Below are positions 2,549-18,431 of a stretch of 64,000 nucleotides of DNA, in pieces (the first letter of the stretch is position 1; every line of letters begins with the position of its first letter). The stretch is from Rathayibacter sp. VKM Ac-2879. GTDB lineage: Bacteria > Actinomycetota > Actinomycetes > Actinomycetales > Microbacteriaceae. The notes beneath the pieces were generated by a model, which saw only the letters and a program-made list of their open reading frames with translations, was not told the origin of the DNA and did not search any database. Location: NCBI RefSeq assembly GCF_015351245.1, contig NZ_JADKSO010000004.1:1-64000 (forward strand). The letters are read 5' to 3'. Position numbers and translations under genes: made by a program.

Positions 2549-2746
2549 TCAGCGGTAGACGGCCCAGTCGTCCTTCGCGAGCACCGTCGGAGTGCCCCCG
2601 ATATCGACCAGCCAGCCGGCGTCGTCACGCTCGAGGTAGCGTCCCTGCACGATCTCAGGAGCCCAGCCGCCGTCGCGCGACGAGATCCAGCGTACGAAGC
2701 GCACGGTTCCGCCTCGACGGAACAGGGTGCCGTTGTGATCGCTCAT
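2549..2746 (-). CDS. Small protein, partner of DUF7882 gene (couplet 1)
   Basis: 65 aa (MSDHNGTLFRRGG...). Its ATG overlaps the stop of the upstream DUF7882 gene in an ATGA arrangement, so translation is very likely coupled. The sequence is soluble, Trp-rich (VRFVRWISSRDGGW, DDWAVYR) and looks like a small beta-barrel, with a turn-rich core GGTPTVLAKDDW. I recognise no family. It shows no similarity to the partner of the second DUF7882 couplet at 12754. Confidence 0.65.
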   Translation of the reverse strand: MSDHNGTLFRRGGTVRFVRWISSRDGGWAPEIVQGRYLERDDAGWLVDIGGTPTVLAKDDWAVYR

Positions 2747-3069
2747 GCAGGAATCTTCTTCGCTCGCGGATCGGGGCCGACATCGGGCTCGGGCAGCAGG
2801 TGCAGGCCGAGCCGGCCATGGGAGGCGTGGGAGAGCTCCCGCAGCCAGTACGGGTTCAGCTCGACAGCGCTGGTGTCGTCGTACTCGTAGCGCGTGGGAA
2901 TGCTGGGATGCAGCCACAGCTCGGAACGTCGACCGTCCTCGTCCTCGACGGTCAGGAGGAAGCCCTCACCACGACGGAACCGGGAGGTGATGACGGTCTG
3001 CAGGTGAGCAAGCGCGCGGTCGTCGAAAGGATGGGCACTGGCGGGCGCGCCGTACAGCAGTCGTCCCAT
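2743..3069 (-). CDS. DUF7882 family protein, copy A
   Basis: 108 aa. Features shared with two other copies in this window (12975 and 18114): an N-terminal strand MGRLLYG, then FDDRALAHLQTVI, RRGEGF, the strongly conserved WLHPS, and LNPYW. The ATG is preceded by GAAGAGG. Proteins of this family are restricted, as far as I know, to Microbacteriaceae and relatives and have sometimes been labelled DNA ligase in databases, although no ligase motif is present. Function unknown. The gene is divergent from a MarR regulator with palindromic sites between them, and coupled to the 65-aa downstream gene. It is the most divergent copy (ELWLHPS, no SWxD motif). Confidence 0.85.
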   Translation of the reverse strand: MGRLLYGAPASAHPFDDRALAHLQTVITSRFRRGEGFLLTVEDEDGRRSELWLHPSIPTRYEYDDTSAVELNPYWLRELSHASHGRLGLHLLPEPDVGPDPRAKKIPA

Positions 3070-3261: not shown

Positions 3262-3711
3262 ATGGCCGCACGACCTGATCTCTTCGCTTTACTCACGCGA
3301 CTGCGCACCGCCGAGCGCGACTACGACTCCCGTGTGGAGCGGCGCCTGCGCATCGGCACCACCGATCTCGCGGCCCTGCGCATCATCGGAGTCGGCGAGC
3401 GCGGCGGCGAGATCGTCCGTGCGGTCGGCCTCGCCAGCGGCCTCGGCATCACGACCGCCGCGGTCTCGCTCCTCGTCGACCGTCTCGTCCGCGCCGGCTA
3501 CGTCGACCGAGTCCTCGACCCCTCGGACGGGCGCGGGCGCATCCTCTGTCTCACCGAAGCGGCGCAGCAGGGCCTCGGGGTCACCGACGGCCCGGCCTAC
3601 GGTGCGATCCGGCGCTTCACCGACGGCATCCCGGCAGCGCAGGCGGCGAATGCCGCCACGCTGCTCCGCGAGCTGAGCGGCATCCTCGAATCGCAGCCCG
3701 CCGCCTCCTGA
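3262..3711 (+). CDS. MarR family transcriptional regulator
   Basis: 149 aa from ATG with GGAAGG upstream. A winged helix-turn-helix is seen at about residues 40-100: DLAALRIIG, ASGLGITTAAVSLLVDRLVRAGYVDR (recognition helix), then the wing DPSDGRGRILCLTEAA. The flanking helices for dimerisation are short. No redox-sensing Cys of OhrR type is apparent near the N terminus. It is divergent from the DUF7882 couplet, with a palindrome in the gap, so that couplet is the likely target. Its 3' end nearly meets the convergent AraC gene. Confidence 0.85.
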   Translation: MAARPDLFALLTRLRTAERDYDSRVERRLRIGTTDLAALRIIGVGERGGEIVRAVGLASGLGITTAAVSLLVDRLVRAGYVDRVLDPSDGRGRILCLTEAAQQGLGVTDGPAYGAIRRFTDGIPAAQAANAATLLRELSGILESQPAAS

Positions 3712-10993: not shown

Positions 10994-11311
10994 ATGAAGA
11001 CACTTCTCCACATCGGAGGCTCCCTAACGCTCGACGATGCAATCGCCGATGCGGTGCTCCGCTACTCGCTGGCCCTCGCCGAACGGTTCAGAGCGGAAGC
11101 GGTGACACTCTCCGATGACTCGGCGCCGGACTCCACGGTGGTGCTGACCCTCGGGTTCGGCATGCCGTTGGCCATCATCGGCAGCTCAGGCGCTCCCGAG
11201 TCGAGCGAGGACCTCCTGCGCCGCATCGCGGAACTGGAGGGCACGCTGAACGGCGTGGGCGCCTCCGATGCCGACCCGCGGGCCGACTGGGACGGCAGAG
11301 AGGACTACTGA
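10994..11311 (+). CDS. Small conserved Microbacteriaceae-type protein (paralogue of 13501 gene)
   Basis: 105 aa starting MKTLLHIGGSLTLDDAIADA, with AGGA upstream of the ATG. It aligns over its length with the product at 13501: an N-terminal MKxxL, acidic DDAxADA, YxxALAxR, a DSTVVLTL-like strand, and a C-terminal RRIAELEGT helix. It is predicted to be an alpha/beta protein, cytosolic, without catalytic motifs I can name. The last 7 nt overlap the convergent GAF-ANTAR gene. Function unknown. Confidence 0.75.
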   Translation: MKTLLHIGGSLTLDDAIADAVLRYSLALAERFRAEAVTLSDDSAPDSTVVLTLGFGMPLAIIGSSGAPESSEDLLRRIAELEGTLNGVGASDADPRADWDGREDY

Positions 11312-12024
11312 GGCGGGCGGCGGTAGTCGCGGATGATCTCCTGTGCGAGCGTCGTGATGGGCGTCGACGTCGACCGCGACCGCGACCGCAGCACCTCGAA
11401 TGCCCGCTCGACCGTGATGTGGTGCGCGTAGGCGAGGATGCCCTTGGCCTGCTCGATGAGGATCCGGCTGTCGAGCGCGTGCTGCAACTGTTCTTGCGTG
11501 ACGACGCTCTCGCGTAGCGCGCGCTGGTGCAGGATCCCCACGGTGGCCACATCGGCGAACGCCTGAACGAGAGCGATGTCGTCACCGTCGAGAGCCCCGG
11601 TGGCGGCCTGGAACAGGTTCAGCGAACCGATCGTCGTGCCGCGGGACCGCATCGGGACACAGTGCGCGGAGCGGATGTCGAGCTCGATCGAGAGCTCGCG
11701 GAACTCGGCCCAGCTGTCGTCGACCCTCCGGGTGTCGGGCACGACAACGGGGGCACCGGTCTCGTAGCAGCGGATGCAGGGGCCAGAGCCCCGGTCGAGC
11801 TGCAGGAGCTCGATCAGCCGGGCATCCTCATCGGTCGAGGCGAGCACCTCGAGGGCGCCGCTGGGATCGGCGAGCACCAGCCCGGCCGACACGGCATCGA
11901 ACAGAGTCGCACTGCTCTCGACCAGCGTCTGTGTGAAGTCGACGACGTCGTAGTCGTCGACGAGCGTGTCGGAGAGAGCGACGAACGTCTGGATGACGCG
12001 GCTCTCGCGGGCGTTCGTCACCAT
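11305..12024 (-). CDS. GAF and ANTAR domain protein (RNA-binding antiterminator), 239 aa
   Basis: A GAF sensor spans about residues 20-160 (VDFTQTLVESSATLFD... GTTIGSLNLF), with Cys-rich SGPCIRCYETG in the middle. It is followed by an ANTAR three-helix domain at about 170-230 (LQHALDSRILIEQAKGILAYAHHITVERAFEVLRSRSR, residues quoted only in part here: RILIEQAKGILA). ANTAR proteins bind paired RNA hairpins and prevent termination; GAF-ANTAR proteins are typical of actinobacteria. Its ATG overlaps the 3' end of the upstream GAF-ANTAR gene by 7 nt, so the two are co-translated. Signal and RNA targets are unknown. Confidence 0.88.
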   Translation of the reverse strand: MVTNARESRVIQTFVALSDTLVDDYDVVDFTQTLVESSATLFDAVSAGLVLADPSGALEVLASTDEDARLIELLQLDRGSGPCIRCYETGAPVVVPDTRRVDDSWAEFRELSIELDIRSAHCVPMRSRGTTIGSLNLFQAATGALDGDDIALVQAFADVATVGILHQRALRESVVTQEQLQHALDSRILIEQAKGILAYAHHITVERAFEVLRSRSRSTSTPITTLAQEIIRDYRRPPQ

Positions 12025-12680
12025 TCTTCGTCCTCGGTCGTGAGGGGTCGGTCGGGGAATCCGTCGTGTTGGCTCACGATGTCTTTCGCGACGTCGATGA
12101 CCGCACGACGCTGGGCGAAGGCATGCGCTCGGAGCAGGAGGTGTGCCTCCTCAGGAGACGTGCGGTATCGGGCGATGATCATGCCCGTCGCCTGGTGCAC
12201 CTCTCGTCGCGAGCGCGGGTTGCTGCTCTCGTCGTTCTCCGCCTCCTCGCCATCCCGCAGGACGGCCGCGAGGACGAGGAGTGCGGTTGCCGCGGAGGAG
12301 GCGGTGATGCCGTTCAGCTCGGCGCGACTGAGGCTGCGCGGCCGGCGCGAGTAGAGGTCGATAGCCCCGATTGAGAGCCCGGCGATCGAGAGCGGGAACG
12401 CGAAGACCGAGCGGATGTCGATCGCGGCGACGGCGTCGCTGAAGAGCGGCCAGCGGGCTTCGGAGGCGGTGTCGGGCACTGAGACGGGTGCCGTGTCCCG
12501 CACCGCGTCCCAGCAGGGGCCCTCGCCCAGGTCGAGCTGGATCTCGTCGAGTCGCGTAGCCGTGTCGTCGCTGGCCGCGACGGTCTCGCCTCCGAACGGG
12601 CCGCCGAGGGTTGAGATCGCAACGCCGTCGACGGGATAGCCGCGCAGATACGGTCCGTAGAGGGCGTCGGAGTCGGTCAT
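12018..12680 (-). CDS. GAF and ANTAR domain protein, 220 aa, first gene of pair
   Basis: The GAF region (residues about 10-150: GVAISTLGG, LDLGEGPCWDAVRDT, FAFPLSIAGLSIGAIDLYS) is followed by an ANTAR helix set (REVHQATGMIIARYRTSPEEA). The start chosen is the ATG at 12680 with TAGGGT 7 nt upstream, a near-leaderless arrangement; longer in-frame GTG starts exist. GAF Cys in GEGPCWD is the same position as in the downstream protein. The pair may form a heteromer that reads one signal, which is inference. The neighbouring small-protein operon 12754-13307 lies just upstream on the same strand. Confidence 0.87.
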   Translation of the reverse strand: MTDSDALYGPYLRGYPVDGVAISTLGGPFGGETVAASDDTATRLDEIQLDLGEGPCWDAVRDTAPVSVPDTASEARWPLFSDAVAAIDIRSVFAFPLSIAGLSIGAIDLYSRRPRSLSRAELNGITASSAATALLVLAAVLRDGEEAENDESSNPRSRREVHQATGMIIARYRTSPEEAHLLLRAHAFAQRRAVIDVAKDIVSQHDGFPDRPLTTEDEEW

Positions 12681-12753
12681 CGCGTTCACCCTAGCCGCCA
12701 CCTCTCCCGGGATGAGGGGTGCGCGGAGTCGGATAGTGAGGAGTCCACGGAGA

Positions 12754-12978
12754 TCAGAGCGCGCTCTCAGCATCGAAGTCATTGGTGACGATGGTCAGCG
12801 CGGTGTGCGAAGTGATCAGGATCAGAGCGGAGTTCGTGCGCCCCTCTCCGTAATTGACCCTGAGCCACTGGGGGGCAGAAGAGGCCAGGGCGGCGTCGAC
12901 TTCGGCCCGGAACTCGTCGACAGTGCGGTCGCCGACCGTATAAGGCATGCCGTTATAGACGATGTCGAGACGTTTCAC
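12754..12978 (-). CDS. Small protein, partner of DUF7882 gene (couplet 2)
   Basis: 74 aa (MKRLDIVYNGMPYTVGDRTVDEF...). The GTG start overlaps the TGA of the upstream DUF7882 gene as GTGA. The sequence has an N-terminal beta-hairpin, a helix (EFRAEVDAALAS), WLRVNYGEG and a strand pair LILITSHTALTIV, so a small alpha/beta fold. Similar short proteins occur in related genomes as far as I recall, with no assigned function. It is unrelated in sequence to the 65-aa partner of couplet 1. Confidence 0.75.
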   Translation of the reverse strand: MKRLDIVYNGMPYTVGDRTVDEFRAEVDAALASSAPQWLRVNYGEGRTNSALILITSHTALTIVTNDFDAESAL

Positions 12979-13307
12979 GGGTGCGGCTCTCGCTCGGGCG
13001 GCCGTACGGGCTCGGGCGGCTCCGAGATGATGTACAGGCCGCCCGAAGAGTTCGCGAGATCGGTGAGCGCAGCGATCCACGCGGGGTTGATGCGTGGCAT
13101 CCGCCCACCGAAGTACTTATAGCGCAGCGAGTGCGAGGGGTGCAGCCAGATCGCGCTCCGGCCGTCGCCCATGCTGTGGTCATCCCTCCAGCTGAGGAGG
13201 AACGATTCGTTCCGTCTCAGTTTCGCCGTGATCACGATCTGGAGGTGCGCGAGGACCCTGTCCTCAAAGTCGATCTCGATAGTGCCGTCGTAGTGAAGTT
13301 TTCCCAT
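12975..13307 (-). CDS. DUF7882 family protein, copy B
   Basis: 110 aa, ATG with GGAG 8 nt upstream. It is the most consensus-like copy: MGKLHYDG, FEDRVLAHLQIVITAKLRR, SFLLSWRDD, GDGRSAIWLHPS, INPAWIAAL, then NSSGGLYIISEP and a Pro-rich tail. No catalytic residues are evident; the invariant Arg-x-Leu-Ala-His-Leu and Trp-Leu-His-Pro-Ser suggest a binding surface. It is translationally coupled to the 74-aa gene and sits between GAF-ANTAR regulators and ligD. Database names linking this family to DNA ligase are not supported by the sequence. Confidence 0.88.
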   Translation of the reverse strand: MGKLHYDGTIEIDFEDRVLAHLQIVITAKLRRNESFLLSWRDDHSMGDGRSAIWLHPSHSLRYKYFGGRMPRINPAWIAALTDLANSSGGLYIISEPPEPVRPPEREPHP

Positions 13308-13500: not shown

Positions 13501-13845
13501 ATGAAGCACATCCTCTTCGCGGACAAGACGATTGTGGTGGGCGACGACGCGGCCGACGCGTTGGTCGAGTACGCCGTCGCGCTCGCCGCGCGAAGCCAGG
13601 CCGACGACGTCGAGTACCTCGGGATCGGGGCGGACGGTGCGACGGTCCGGGTCACCTTCCTGGTGAATGCGGCGTCCGCGTTGGTGGTGGAGACGACTCC
13701 CTCCGATCTACCCGAACCGGACAACACGGACGAGATTAGGCGCATCCGCTCTCGCATTGACGCTCTCACCGGGACTCACCCTGTCCAGCCCGCCGTTCAT
13801 CCGATCACCTCGGACTTCGACGTCGAGAGCGGGTTGGAGTTCTGA
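13501..13845 (+). CDS. Small conserved Microbacteriaceae-type protein (paralogue of 10994 gene)
   Basis: 114 aa beginning MKHILFADKTIVVGDDAADA. It shares the DDAADAL, YAVALAARSQAD, a VRVTF strand and the RIRSRIDALTGT helix with the 10994 product. The ATG follows GATAGGCCCT without a clear ribosome binding site; GCTGTCAACC lies 40 nt upstream, the same decamer found at a similar distance before the SDR gene at 5669. It is divergent from the DUF7882 copy B couplet. Function unknown. Confidence 0.75.
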   Translation: MKHILFADKTIVVGDDAADALVEYAVALAARSQADDVEYLGIGADGATVRVTFLVNAASALVVETTPSDLPEPDNTDEIRRIRSRIDALTGTHPVQPAVHPITSDFDVESGLEF

Positions 13846-14383: not shown

Positions 14384-16873
14384 TCAGCGTCGCGGCTCCT
14401 CGCTGCGCACCTCTGACGCCGCCTTGTCGGCGCGCCAGCCGCGCCACACGGGCTGCCGCAACGTTCCGGAGGCGGTGCGCTCGCGGTAACGGACCTCGCC
14501 GACGAGCACCGGCCTGACCCAGTGCACTCCGCGGGACTCGAGCGGAGGGACCGACACCGCCGGCTCGTCGCTCGTGAGCCTGGCCAAGCGATCGACGAGC
14601 CCGCGACGCTCGCGATCGCTGAAGCCGGTGCCCACCCGACCGGAATAGACGAGCCGGCCATCATCGTCGGGGATCGCCGTGAGCAGGGAGCCGACCGAGC
14701 CCCGCAAGCCTCCCTCGCCGTCGCGCCAGCCGACGATGACGACCTCTTGCACGCGATGGTGGGTGAGCTTGACCCACTCGCTCGAGCGGACGCCTGGGCG
14801 GTAGCGCGCGTCGCGACGCTTGGCCACGACCCCCTCCAGGCCGAGCGCCAGGCTCGTCGCCATCGCCTCGTCGAGGTCGCCGTCGAAGGCCGCTGGCACG
14901 TGCACCTGCTCGTTCTCGGCGACGAGCCGTTCGAGTGCGGCGCGACGGGCGTCATAGCCCTGCGCAGTCGCGTCCGTGCCGTCGAGCGTCAGCAGGTCGA
15001 ACACCATGAGGTGCACCGGCGTCTCTCGCGCCGCCGCCTCGATCTCGCGCGGCGTCGTCAGCCCGCCGCGCGTCTGGAGCAGACCGAAGTCGGGACGGCC
15101 TCGCGCATCGAGTGCGACGATCTCGCCGTCGAGAACCGCGTCGACCGGAACCGCCTGCGCGAGCGGCGCGAGGAGGTCGGGAAAGGTCGCCGTCAGGTCG
15201 TTGCCGTTGCGACTCGTGAGGGTGATCGCTTCTCCGCGTCTCTGCACGAGCGCGCGGTAGCCGTCCCACTTCATCTCGATGGCGGAGTCGGGGTGGACAT
15301 CCGAGGGGCGGCCGGCGGTCGCGAGCATGGGCCGGACGTCGGCCGCGGGCACGCCGAGACGCGCGGAGGCGCCCGCTGTCCCGCGCGCGGCGGCTCCGCG
15401 CCCGGATCGCGCGCGCGAGGAGGAGTCCGGCGCCATGAGGTGCAGCAGCCAGTTCTGTGCATCGCCGCGCCCGCCCGTGGCTCCCGTGTGCAGCAGCGCG
15501 TATCGCCGAGGCCGGCCGCCGAGCCCGCCGTCGTTCCGCCCGGTCAACACGGCGATCACCTCGTCGCCCTCCCGCCACTTCTCAAGGGTGTAGCTGCCCT
15601 CGTCCCAGATGCGCGCCTCACCGCCTCCGTACTCGCCCGCGGGGATGGTGCCCTCGAAGGTCGCGTACTCGAGCGGGTGATCTTCGGTCTGCACGGCGAG
15701 CCGGTCGGGGTCGCCGTCGAGCGGCGGTCCCTTCGGCACGGCCCAGCTCACTAGCACGCCGTCGTGCTCGAGCCGGAAGTCGTAGTGCAGGCGCCGCGCG
15801 CGATGCTCCTGAATGACGAAGGTGTCGCCAGAGCCCGACCTCGCCGACTCCCCTGCGGGAACCGGCTCGGGCGTCTTCGCGGCGTCGCGCATGCTGCGGT
15901 AGGTGGCGAGCCGATCGGCGGAGGTGGCGGTCGCCGCGAAGCCGGCGAGGCGCTCGGGAGTCGGCTCGAGGCCTGCGCCACGAGCGGCCAGCAGGGGACG
16001 CAGCAGGTCTCCGGAGGCGCGGAGTCGTTCGATCACCTCCTCCGGCCCGAGGTGGCGGAGGCCGCTCGCCCCCAGCTCCTCCCACGTGCGCGGCGCTGCG
16101 ACCCGGGGCAGCAGGCGCCCGCGGAGCGAATACGGCGAGATGGTGGTCGCGGCGGCGCTGTTCTGGCTCCAGTCGACGAGGACCTTGCCCTCGCGGAGGG
16201 TCTTCTTCCTGTCCGAGACGACGAGCTCGCGATGATCGGCCTCGAGGGCTGTGGCGAGTTCGTGCGCGACGGCCGAGACCTGCTCGCTCGAGGCGGAGGC
16301 GTCGAGCGGGCAGTAGAGGTGGACACCCTTGCTCCCGCTGGTGACCGGCAGCGGTGCCAGTCCCATCCCCTCGAGCAGCTCGCGAGCGAAGAACGCGACT
16401 TCGGCGCACTCGGCCAGGCCCGCGCCGTCACCCGGATCGAGGTCGAGCACGAGACGGTCCGGCGGGCGGTGCGTTCCGCCGGAGTCGACCCGCCATTGCG
16501 GGACATGCAGTTCGAGCGCCGCCTGCTGCGCGAGCCAGGTGAGTCCTGCGACCTCGTCGATCAGGGGGTAGTCGACCGCGCGGGACGAGTGCTCGATGGT
16601 GATGCGGCTCAGCCAGTGCGGCGCGGAGGCGGGGAGGTTCTTCTCGAAGAAGACGTCGCCCGGGTGCTCGGCCGTCCCGACTCCGTCGACCCACCGCTTG
16701 CGTGTCACGGGCCGCCGGGCGAGGTGCGGCAGCATCGCGGAGGCGACGGCGGCGTAATAGGAGAGGACATCGGCCTTGGTGAACCCCGCTTCGGGATAGA
16801 CGACCCGCTCGAGGTTCGTGAGCCGGAGGCGACGCCCACCGACCACGACGAGCTGGGGCGACGAGGACGACAT
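14384..16873 (-). CDS. ligD: ATP-dependent DNA ligase LigD (Pol-PE-Lig) for non-homologous end joining
   Basis: 829 aa with all three modules. Polymerase/primase 1-290: metal ligands Asp144 and Asp146 in LVLDLDPGD, then SGSKGVHLY. Phosphoesterase 345-480: HYDFRLE with His363, WAVPKGPP, TIPAGEYGGG. Ligase 510-815: nucleotidyl-accepting Lys535 in EMKWDGYRA, LDGEIVALD, EGVVAKR, then an OB-fold ending VWRGWRADK. It repairs double-strand breaks together with Ku, adding nucleotides and sealing. The order Pol-PE-Lig is that of mycobacterial-type LigD with the polymerase first. No ku gene lies in the window; its nearest neighbours are small proteins of unknown function. Confidence 0.95.
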   Translation of the reverse strand: MSSSSPQLVVVGGRRLRLTNLERVVYPEAGFTKADVLSYYAAVASAMLPHLARRPVTRKRWVDGVGTAEHPGDVFFEKNLPASAPHWLSRITIEHSSRAVDYPLIDEVAGLTWLAQQAALELHVPQWRVDSGGTHRPPDRLVLDLDPGDGAGLAECAEVAFFARELLEGMGLAPLPVTSGSKGVHLYCPLDASASSEQVSAVAHELATALEADHRELVVSDRKKTLREGKVLVDWSQNSAAATTISPYSLRGRLLPRVAAPRTWEELGASGLRHLGPEEVIERLRASGDLLRPLLAARGAGLEPTPERLAGFAATATSADRLATYRSMRDAAKTPEPVPAGESARSGSGDTFVIQEHRARRLHYDFRLEHDGVLVSWAVPKGPPLDGDPDRLAVQTEDHPLEYATFEGTIPAGEYGGGEARIWDEGSYTLEKWREGDEVIAVLTGRNDGGLGGRPRRYALLHTGATGGRGDAQNWLLHLMAPDSSSRARSGRGAAARGTAGASARLGVPAADVRPMLATAGRPSDVHPDSAIEMKWDGYRALVQRRGEAITLTSRNGNDLTATFPDLLAPLAQAVPVDAVLDGEIVALDARGRPDFGLLQTRGGLTTPREIEAAARETPVHLMVFDLLTLDGTDATAQGYDARRAALERLVAENEQVHVPAAFDGDLDEAMATSLALGLEGVVAKRRDARYRPGVRSSEWVKLTHHRVQEVVIVGWRDGEGGLRGSVGSLLTAIPDDDGRLVYSGRVGTGFSDRERRGLVDRLARLTSDEPAVSVPPLESRGVHWVRPVLVGEVRYRERTASGTLRQPVWRGWRADKAASEVRSEEPRR

Positions 16874-18113: not shown

Positions 18114-18431
18114 TCAGGAGCCCTGCTGCGGCTCCTGCGGTTCGGGCAGGACCGACAGTTCGCCGTGCATGCTCGCGACGCTGAGCATCTGCTCGATCCA
18201 CTGCCGGTTGAGCTTGGGCTGATGGGCCTCCGTGAAACGGAAGTGCAGCGGCACCGACGGGTGCAGCCAGACCGAGCTGCGGCCATGACCGCTCGAACTG
18301 TCCTCGAGCCACGAGAGCGAGAAGGCTTCGTTGCGACGCAACTTCGAGAGGACGGCGACCTTGAGGTGCGCGAGGACACGCTCCTCGAACTCGATCTCGA
18401 GGTTCTGCGGTCCGTAGATGAGCGTGGCCAC
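18114..18431 (-). CDS. DUF7882 family protein, copy C
   Basis: 105 aa from a GTG with GAAAGGG 5 nt upstream. It reads MATLIYGPQNLEIEF, EERVLAHLKVAVLSKLRR, EAFSLSWLEDSSSGHGRSS, VWLHPSVPLHF, LNRQWIEQM and ends in a Pro/Gln-rich tail, keeping every hallmark of copy B. Unlike copies A and B it is not overlapped by a partner gene. GGCTGTCAATG lies about 100 nt upstream. Function unknown. Confidence 0.87.
   Translation of the reverse strand: MATLIYGPQNLEIEFEERVLAHLKVAVLSKLRRNEAFSLSWLEDSSSGHGRSSVWLHPSVPLHFRFTEAHQPKLNRQWIEQMLSVASMHGELSVLPEPQEPQQGS

Follow-up and report, generated by a model that had tools for sequence, protein, structure and literature searches.

Couplet B, one of two overlapping gene pairs in the window (the whole stretch of DNA analysed, 64,000 nucleotides of the Rathayibacter sp. 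VKM Ac-2879 contig NZ_JADKSO010000004.1), probably encodes a two-subunit assembly of related folds, in which a full-length DUF7882 protein would be joined by an overlapping short relative matching only its N-terminal half. This reading is supported because the second gene, partner B, belongs to a conserved family, is almost exclusively linked to DUF7882, appears to be under purifying selection and resembles DUF7882 at the profile level. DUF7882 (PF25355) entered Pfam in 2025, described as a putative cytoplasmic transducer for the CryoRhodopsins (CryoR; PMC12227055). Our literature search for DUF7882 and PF25355 found the family named only in that paper, whose parts on the transducer treat only the CryoR-linked members; on more recent CryoR research it brought up the same paper and a cryo-EM preprint. 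DUF7882 is thus already known as a putative CryoR transducer family, but it extends far beyond its CryoR-linked members, and the analysis recasts what was a rhodopsin accessory as a large family, specific to its lineage, that has several dedicated partners.

Couplets of the window

The genes discussed here lie at the following window coordinates.

2549-2746, minus strand: partner A, 65 aa, ATGA overlap with copy A; own family, without profile match to DUF7882
2743-3069, minus strand: DUF7882 copy A, 108 aa, first gene of couplet A; PF25355 at 99 bits, positions 1-97
3262-3711, plus strand: MarR-family regulator, divergent from couplet A
10994-11311, plus strand: family N2 protein, 105 aa; close to family N (hhalign 98%)
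11305-12024, minus strand: second GAF-ANTAR protein (Pfam); overlaps the GAF-ANTAR gene at 12018-12689
12018-12689, minus strand: GAF-ANTAR protein (Pfam), 64 nt downstream of partner B on the same strand
12754-12978, minus strand: partner B, 74 aa, GTGA overlap with copy B; conserved family, very probably a short relative of the DUF7882 N-terminal half
12975-13307, minus strand: DUF7882 copy B, 110 aa, first gene of couplet B; PF25355 at 126 bits, positions 1-97
13501-13845, plus strand: family N protein, 114 aa, divergent from copy B; hhalign 91% to the partner-B family
14384-16873, minus strand: LigD, with polymerase, phosphoesterase and ligase domains; between copies B and C
18114-18431, minus strand: DUF7882 copy C, 105 aa, without a coupled partner; PF25355 at 117 bits, positions 2-97

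In its layout the initial annotation is borne out: three DUF7882 paralogues, two with a small gene overlapping by 4 nt, are confirmed by Pfam (PF25355 cut-off 27 bits, model spanning 97 positions) and by coordinates; copies B and C flank ligD, with other genes also in between; and copy A has its own MarR gene, oriented divergently. A profile search of the six frames found no fourth DUF7882 in the window. The motifs RRxExF and WLHPS are indeed common to all three copies, whereas FxDRxLAHL, also given as shared, is confined to A and B and reads FEERVLAHL in copy C. Copy B is 92% identical to a copy from Rathayibacter tanaceti.

Genes were predicted with our own caller, trained on open reading frames with high third-position GC; it missed the DUF7882 genes of the Cryobacterium loci L169 and L180, which were read from the ORF list. 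A coding signal is present in all three DUF7882 copies and both partners, the latter with positive coding scores (15.0 and 21.9), and comparison with three Rathayibacter relatives each gives pN/pS values of 0.07-0.14 for partner A and 0.24-0.28 for partner B. Both partners look like real genes under purifying selection. Pfam and NCBIfam searches of the window genes left the two partners without a family, and Pfam returned nothing convincing for three relatives of partner A, for family N or for the small proteins of L101, L202 and L027. Elsewhere in the window, the open reading frame at 114-1490 has an N-terminus with low-complexity repeats (PRREGDARP-like).

Partner B and its relationship to DUF7882

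Partners A and B had been described as unlike each other and each as unrelated to the DUF7882 protein it overlaps. The dissimilarity holds, partner A forming a different family with hhalign values of 0.1% to B and 0.6% to DUF7882. For partner B the second half of the claim had to be given up: the partner-B family matches DUF7882 at hhalign 83% (E 8.8e-6), with 56 columns aligned collinearly, whereas 42 other families from the same loci, used as controls, do not exceed 1.9% with DUF7882 or 9.2% with B, and 59 column shuffles together with the reversed alignment stay at or below 6.7%. The match covers the N-terminal half of DUF7882, and by eye the two families share GxGR followed by a P-x-I-P-like stretch. 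Searched with PF25355 itself, neither partner B nor any of 40 family members gave a match at E up to 1. Partner B is very probably related to DUF7882 as a short version of its N-terminal half. An alignment of 40 sequences of its family has invariant R3, Y8, W38, G44 and G46.

Linkage of partner B to DUF7882 is tight and near-exclusive. In a sample of 100 genomes from the family to which G002 belongs (a Rathayibacter genome that locus L002 led to; the family is taken to be Microbacteriaceae), partner B occurs at 35 places in 24 genomes, which amounts to 24/62 genomes with DUF7882 and 0/38 without it. Thirty of the 35 genes lie directly behind DUF7882 (26 by listed coordinates, and L222, L225, L226 and L228 after fetching), although the DUF7882 piece called before partner B in L225 is only 47 aa. 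The remaining five stand alone (L210, L221, L223, L224 and L227, the last being a weak 28-bit match). A set of 20 DUF7882 genomes, ten picked from the fetched loci and ten being the other positives of an order sample, contains partner B at 16 places in 11 genomes, 15 of them directly behind DUF7882. Furthermore, when proteins were clustered from 80 loci selected for their resemblance to the window copies, the only clusters with more than four genus labels were DUF7882 with 12, B with 12 and family N with 10; an unassigned group and a doubtful name are included in these label counts. An annotated Microbacterium plasmid carries DUF7882, then B with a 4-nt overlap, then a second DUF7882. In Cryobacterium (L030, L058, L139 and others) the DUF7882-B couplet lies 34-147 nt behind a sigma-70 gene on the same strand. 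Locus L039 (JASDDH010000002.1), titled Planococcus sp. APC 4015, carries the couplet as in Microbacteriaceae, and its organism name looks wrong.

By profile comparison, family N (13501-13845 in the window) belongs to the same superfamily as partner B, with hhalign 91% between the two families and 98% between N and N2. DUF7882 and family N compared directly give only 0.6%, and the DUF7882-N link therefore rests on B. At 22 of 41 family N places (43 matches were listed and two dropped, one a piece of another and one a partner-B gene) a DUF7882 gene is no more than 1.5 kb away, against 0.37 expected, and the family is present in 12/20 DUF7882 genomes. We had considered family N as a third gene of the couplet B operon and dropped the idea; its position relative to couplet B varies, so it is counted as a neighbour only.

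DUF7882 across genomes and at CryoRhodopsin loci

DUF7882 is present in 62 of the 100 family genomes with 1 to 15 copies each, in 15/15 genomes of the genus of G002 (Rathayibacter) with 8 to 21 copies, in 11 of 149 genomes of the order sample and in 4 of 296 genomes of the phylum sample, G002 counted in both of the latter. No relative of copy B was found in 50,697 phage records or, by tblastn, in viral contigs. Sixteen plasmid records match DUF7882; they come from Clavibacter, Cryobacterium, Curtobacterium, Microbacterium, Cnuibacter and Glaciihabitans, all of which we take to be Microbacteriaceae. In nine of the 16 the DUF7882 protein is named "ATP-dependent DNA ligase". The ligase catalytic domain PF01068 is absent from copies A, B and C, for which Pfam gave DUF7882 and one below-cut-off match (DUF2710); the name is very likely a false annotation, perhaps an error propagated from ligD neighbourhoods, and the analysis exposes it as a doubtful database entry. 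Against PDB chains the DUF7882 and partner-B profiles had no sequence match (best E 0.7 and 0.29). DUF7882 genes also occur in tail-to-tail pairs in Microbacterium (L022, L023, L034, L044, L064), and an opposite-strand DUF7882 gene lies behind 17 of 202 DUF7882 copies.

The loci of the 20 genomes hold 118 distinct DUF7882 copies (in this count the CryoR start in L169 was missed by the gene caller). Partner B follows 15 of them, and ten are followed by another same-strand gene within 20 nt, namely three by A, one by CryoR, one by a tandem DUF7882 and five by others. The next same-strand gene is farther off in 52 copies, the next gene is on the other strand in 38, and three have no called gene behind them. 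With 90 of 118 copies lacking a tight partner, the DUF7882 family does not need one. The proportion with a same-strand gene within 20 nt (25/118, 21%) is close to the background in all loci fetched at that point (290/1635, 18%), where 136 of the 1635 other genes meet the following gene at a -4 or -1 junction. Tight coupling in itself thus shows hardly any excess behind DUF7882, and we dropped the idea of one; what is enriched is partner identity: the 4-nt overlap alone is ordinary, and the recurrence of the same partner families is beyond chance.

Partner kinds were mapped onto a FastTree phylogeny of 244 DUF7882 copies over 104 columns, in which 107 of 241 inner branches are open and near-copies add to the clustering. 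A-type copies form one clade (support 99), and the partner label changes twice for CryoR and 11 times for B (at least three changes forced), against means of 12.8 (A), 13.7 (CryoR) and 63.7 (B) for shuffled labels. Judged from this tree, partner kinds follow DUF7882 clades and are not freely swapped. The partner A family has members at 56 places in 15/15 Rathayibacter genomes, of which 30 were examined (12 full-length and 18 other). All 12 full-length, high-scoring members start exactly 4 nt inside the DUF7882 end, and they occur in 12/15 Rathayibacter genomes, whereas none of the 18 others directly follows DUF7882. Copy A sits within one clade of 13 A-type copies, and a MarR gene is divergent from couplet A in 10/12 loci of other genomes. 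Couplet A is therefore fixed within a single DUF7882 clade, whereas partner A has relatives that also occur alone. Rarer tight partners include a 263-aa transglutaminase-like protein. A protein of 119-132 aa overlaps DUF7882 by 4 nt in L015:3862-4553, L051:3852-4564 and L202:1966-2720; those of L015 and L051 have a hydrophobic C-terminus, and that of L202 is without a Pfam family.

The CryoRhodopsin loci served as an independent check. According to the transducer-related parts of PMC12227055, the gene of a small soluble protein adjoins or overlaps the CryoR gene in all genomes analysed by its authors; an AlphaFold3 model there predicts a pentameric ring where adjacent protomers, together with a strand from the tail of the rhodopsin, form one common beta sheet, and the pentamer is likened to bacterial PH-domain rings (PDB 3DCX). 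That likeness belongs to the CryoR transducer model, whereas the DUF7882 and partner-B profiles match no PDB sequence. Rhodopsin matches are present in 84 genomes of a 299-genome family sample. We inspected 43 rhodopsins, comprising 31 lower-scoring ones (E 3e-31 to 6e-17, the range in which CryoR hits fall), nine higher-scoring controls and those of L169, L180 and L211, the last being the 32nd lower-scoring one. In 15 of the 43, DUF7882 lies immediately upstream on the same strand, with -20 to 133 nt between its stop and the first possible rhodopsin start; two more rhodopsins (L278, L289) are tail to tail with a DUF7882 gene, and L180 has a rhodopsin of a different type, followed at a distance of about 500 nt by a DUF7882 gene. 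No DUF7882 was found in the fetched stretch near the other 16 lower-scoring rhodopsins or any of the nine controls. Among 35 aligned rhodopsins (seven controls and L180 omitted), the CryoR-defining helix-B arginine is present in 17/17 beside DUF7882 and in 0/18 others, which independently checks the CryoR-transducer link. Inspected by eye, the final 45 residues contain a tail with the pattern EVYLAEGA..H.RR.RPP..AV in 16/17 and 0/18, respectively; the one DUF7882-linked rhodopsin without it, L299, has an in-frame stop.

Since DUF7882 directly precedes CryoR in its loci, the window order of DUF7882 followed by partner is the order of the CryoR locus. As far as PMC12227055 describes them, the CryoR transducers share Pfam family and gene order with the window couplets, and differ in that the window couplets lack a rhodopsin, partner B being very probably a short DUF7882 relative and partner A a 65-aa protein of another family. 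No rhodopsin stands beside the window copies: partners A and B give no Pfam family, so copies A and B have no rhodopsin partner, and the genes called around copy C include none. A rhodopsin was detected in only 3 of the 20 DUF7882 genomes. The many rhodopsin-free couplets make the supposed transducer function approachable without membrane proteins.

Readings of couplet B and its surroundings

In the assembly reading of couplet B, copy B and partner B would be translationally coupled and would co-assemble in a fixed ratio, forming one oligomer via shared sheets. By analogy with the AlphaFold3 model of the CryoR transducer in the portion of PMC12227055 that presents it, partner B may add strands to the DUF7882 ring or cap them; we regard physical assembly of the two proteins as fairly likely. 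DUF7882 paralogues may further be adaptors in stress or light signalling, with an input or output partner specific to each (CryoR, partner B or partner A), and an output next to the window couplet B may be the downstream GAF-ANTAR pair; such a signalling role is put forward tentatively. Still more doubtful is the wider idea that DUF7882, the partner-B family, N and N2 constitute one superfamily of small ring-forming adaptors, a private signalling toolkit expanded in Microbacteriaceae (up to 21 DUF7882 per genome), with CryoRhodopsin as one of several inputs and partner B building mixed rings. Weighing against the couplet B reading are the match of DUF7882 to family N only via B, the 90/118 DUF7882 copies without a tight partner, the 5/35 partner B genes that stand alone, the presence of B in 11/20 and of N in 12/20 DUF7882 genomes, and a GAF-ANTAR linkage that is weak against background.

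The initial annotation had pictured DUF7882 as a constant scaffold with a swappable coupled effector, the second gene bringing an unrelated activity to the platform. Recurrent tight genes of several kinds do exist, with at least three tightly linked ones (B in 30/35, full-length A in 12/12, CryoR in 15 loci) besides the transglutaminase-like and 119-132 aa proteins. Free swapping, however, fails on the tree, where partner kinds track DUF7882 clades, and the apparent kinship of B with DUF7882, the stand-alone relatives of partner A and the many copies without a tight partner also make this picture unlikely. Two findings that the annotation had said would speak against it come out unevenly: B couplets are indeed missing from most genomes, partner B being present in 24/100, and partners found freely without DUF7882 are seen for the A family, with 0/18 other members behind DUF7882, but not for B. 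We consider it very unlikely that the couplets are ordinary operons in which overlap reflects a compact genome and carries no direct functional link. The near-background frequency of tight downstream genes would fit such operons, but partner identity is non-random, as the figures for B and full-length A and the CryoR signature (17/17) attest.

Two small overlapping genes with many paralogues, some on plasmids, could also recall a toxin-antitoxin type pair. Yet couplet A is kept in 12/15 Rathayibacter genomes with pN/pS below 0.31 for its genes, both couplet B products appear to be relatives, no window gene has a Pfam or NCBIfam match to a toxin or antitoxin family, and the phage records hold no copy B relative, which leaves this explanation extremely improbable. 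A role as DNA-repair accessory to LigD, which could be read from the database name and the linkage to ligD, is quite unlikely. In its favour, 11 DUF7882-ligase pairs lie within 5 kb of each other in 6/20 genomes, against 0.74 expected, and three genomes have DUF7882 and ligD on one strand at distances of 38, 49 and 101 nt, as parts of an island that also holds topoisomerase IB, DUF7218 and SDR genes. But 105 of 116 DUF7882 places in the 20 genomes are more than 5 kb from a ligase gene, and the shared neighbourhood contrasts with the absence of a ligase domain from the window copies.

The assembly reading of couplet B thus remains the preferred one, and the ligD and GAF-ANTAR neighbours hint at stress physiology while proving nothing. 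Like copy C itself, its nearest relatives in G002 and G003 have a ligase gene no more than 3 kb away. The island in three genomes comprises ligD, DUF7882, topoisomerase IB, DUF7218/Rho_N and SDR genes (L161:1-7001, L212:2798-7972, L214:1-5913; one member per cluster checked by Pfam). GAF-ANTAR genes number 10 in 472 kb around DUF7882 and 2 in 261 kb of control loci, a small excess, and their candidacy as a general DUF7882 partner was reduced to a lead. Tandem GAF-ANTAR genes stand beside DUF7882 in the window (11305-12689) and in L003, L004, L005, L014, L175, L187, L197 and L340. A group of small proteins with a WRVCD-like motif (clusters 11, 42, 43 and 63, matched by profile; for example L027:4564-4812) also recurs near DUF7882 loci.
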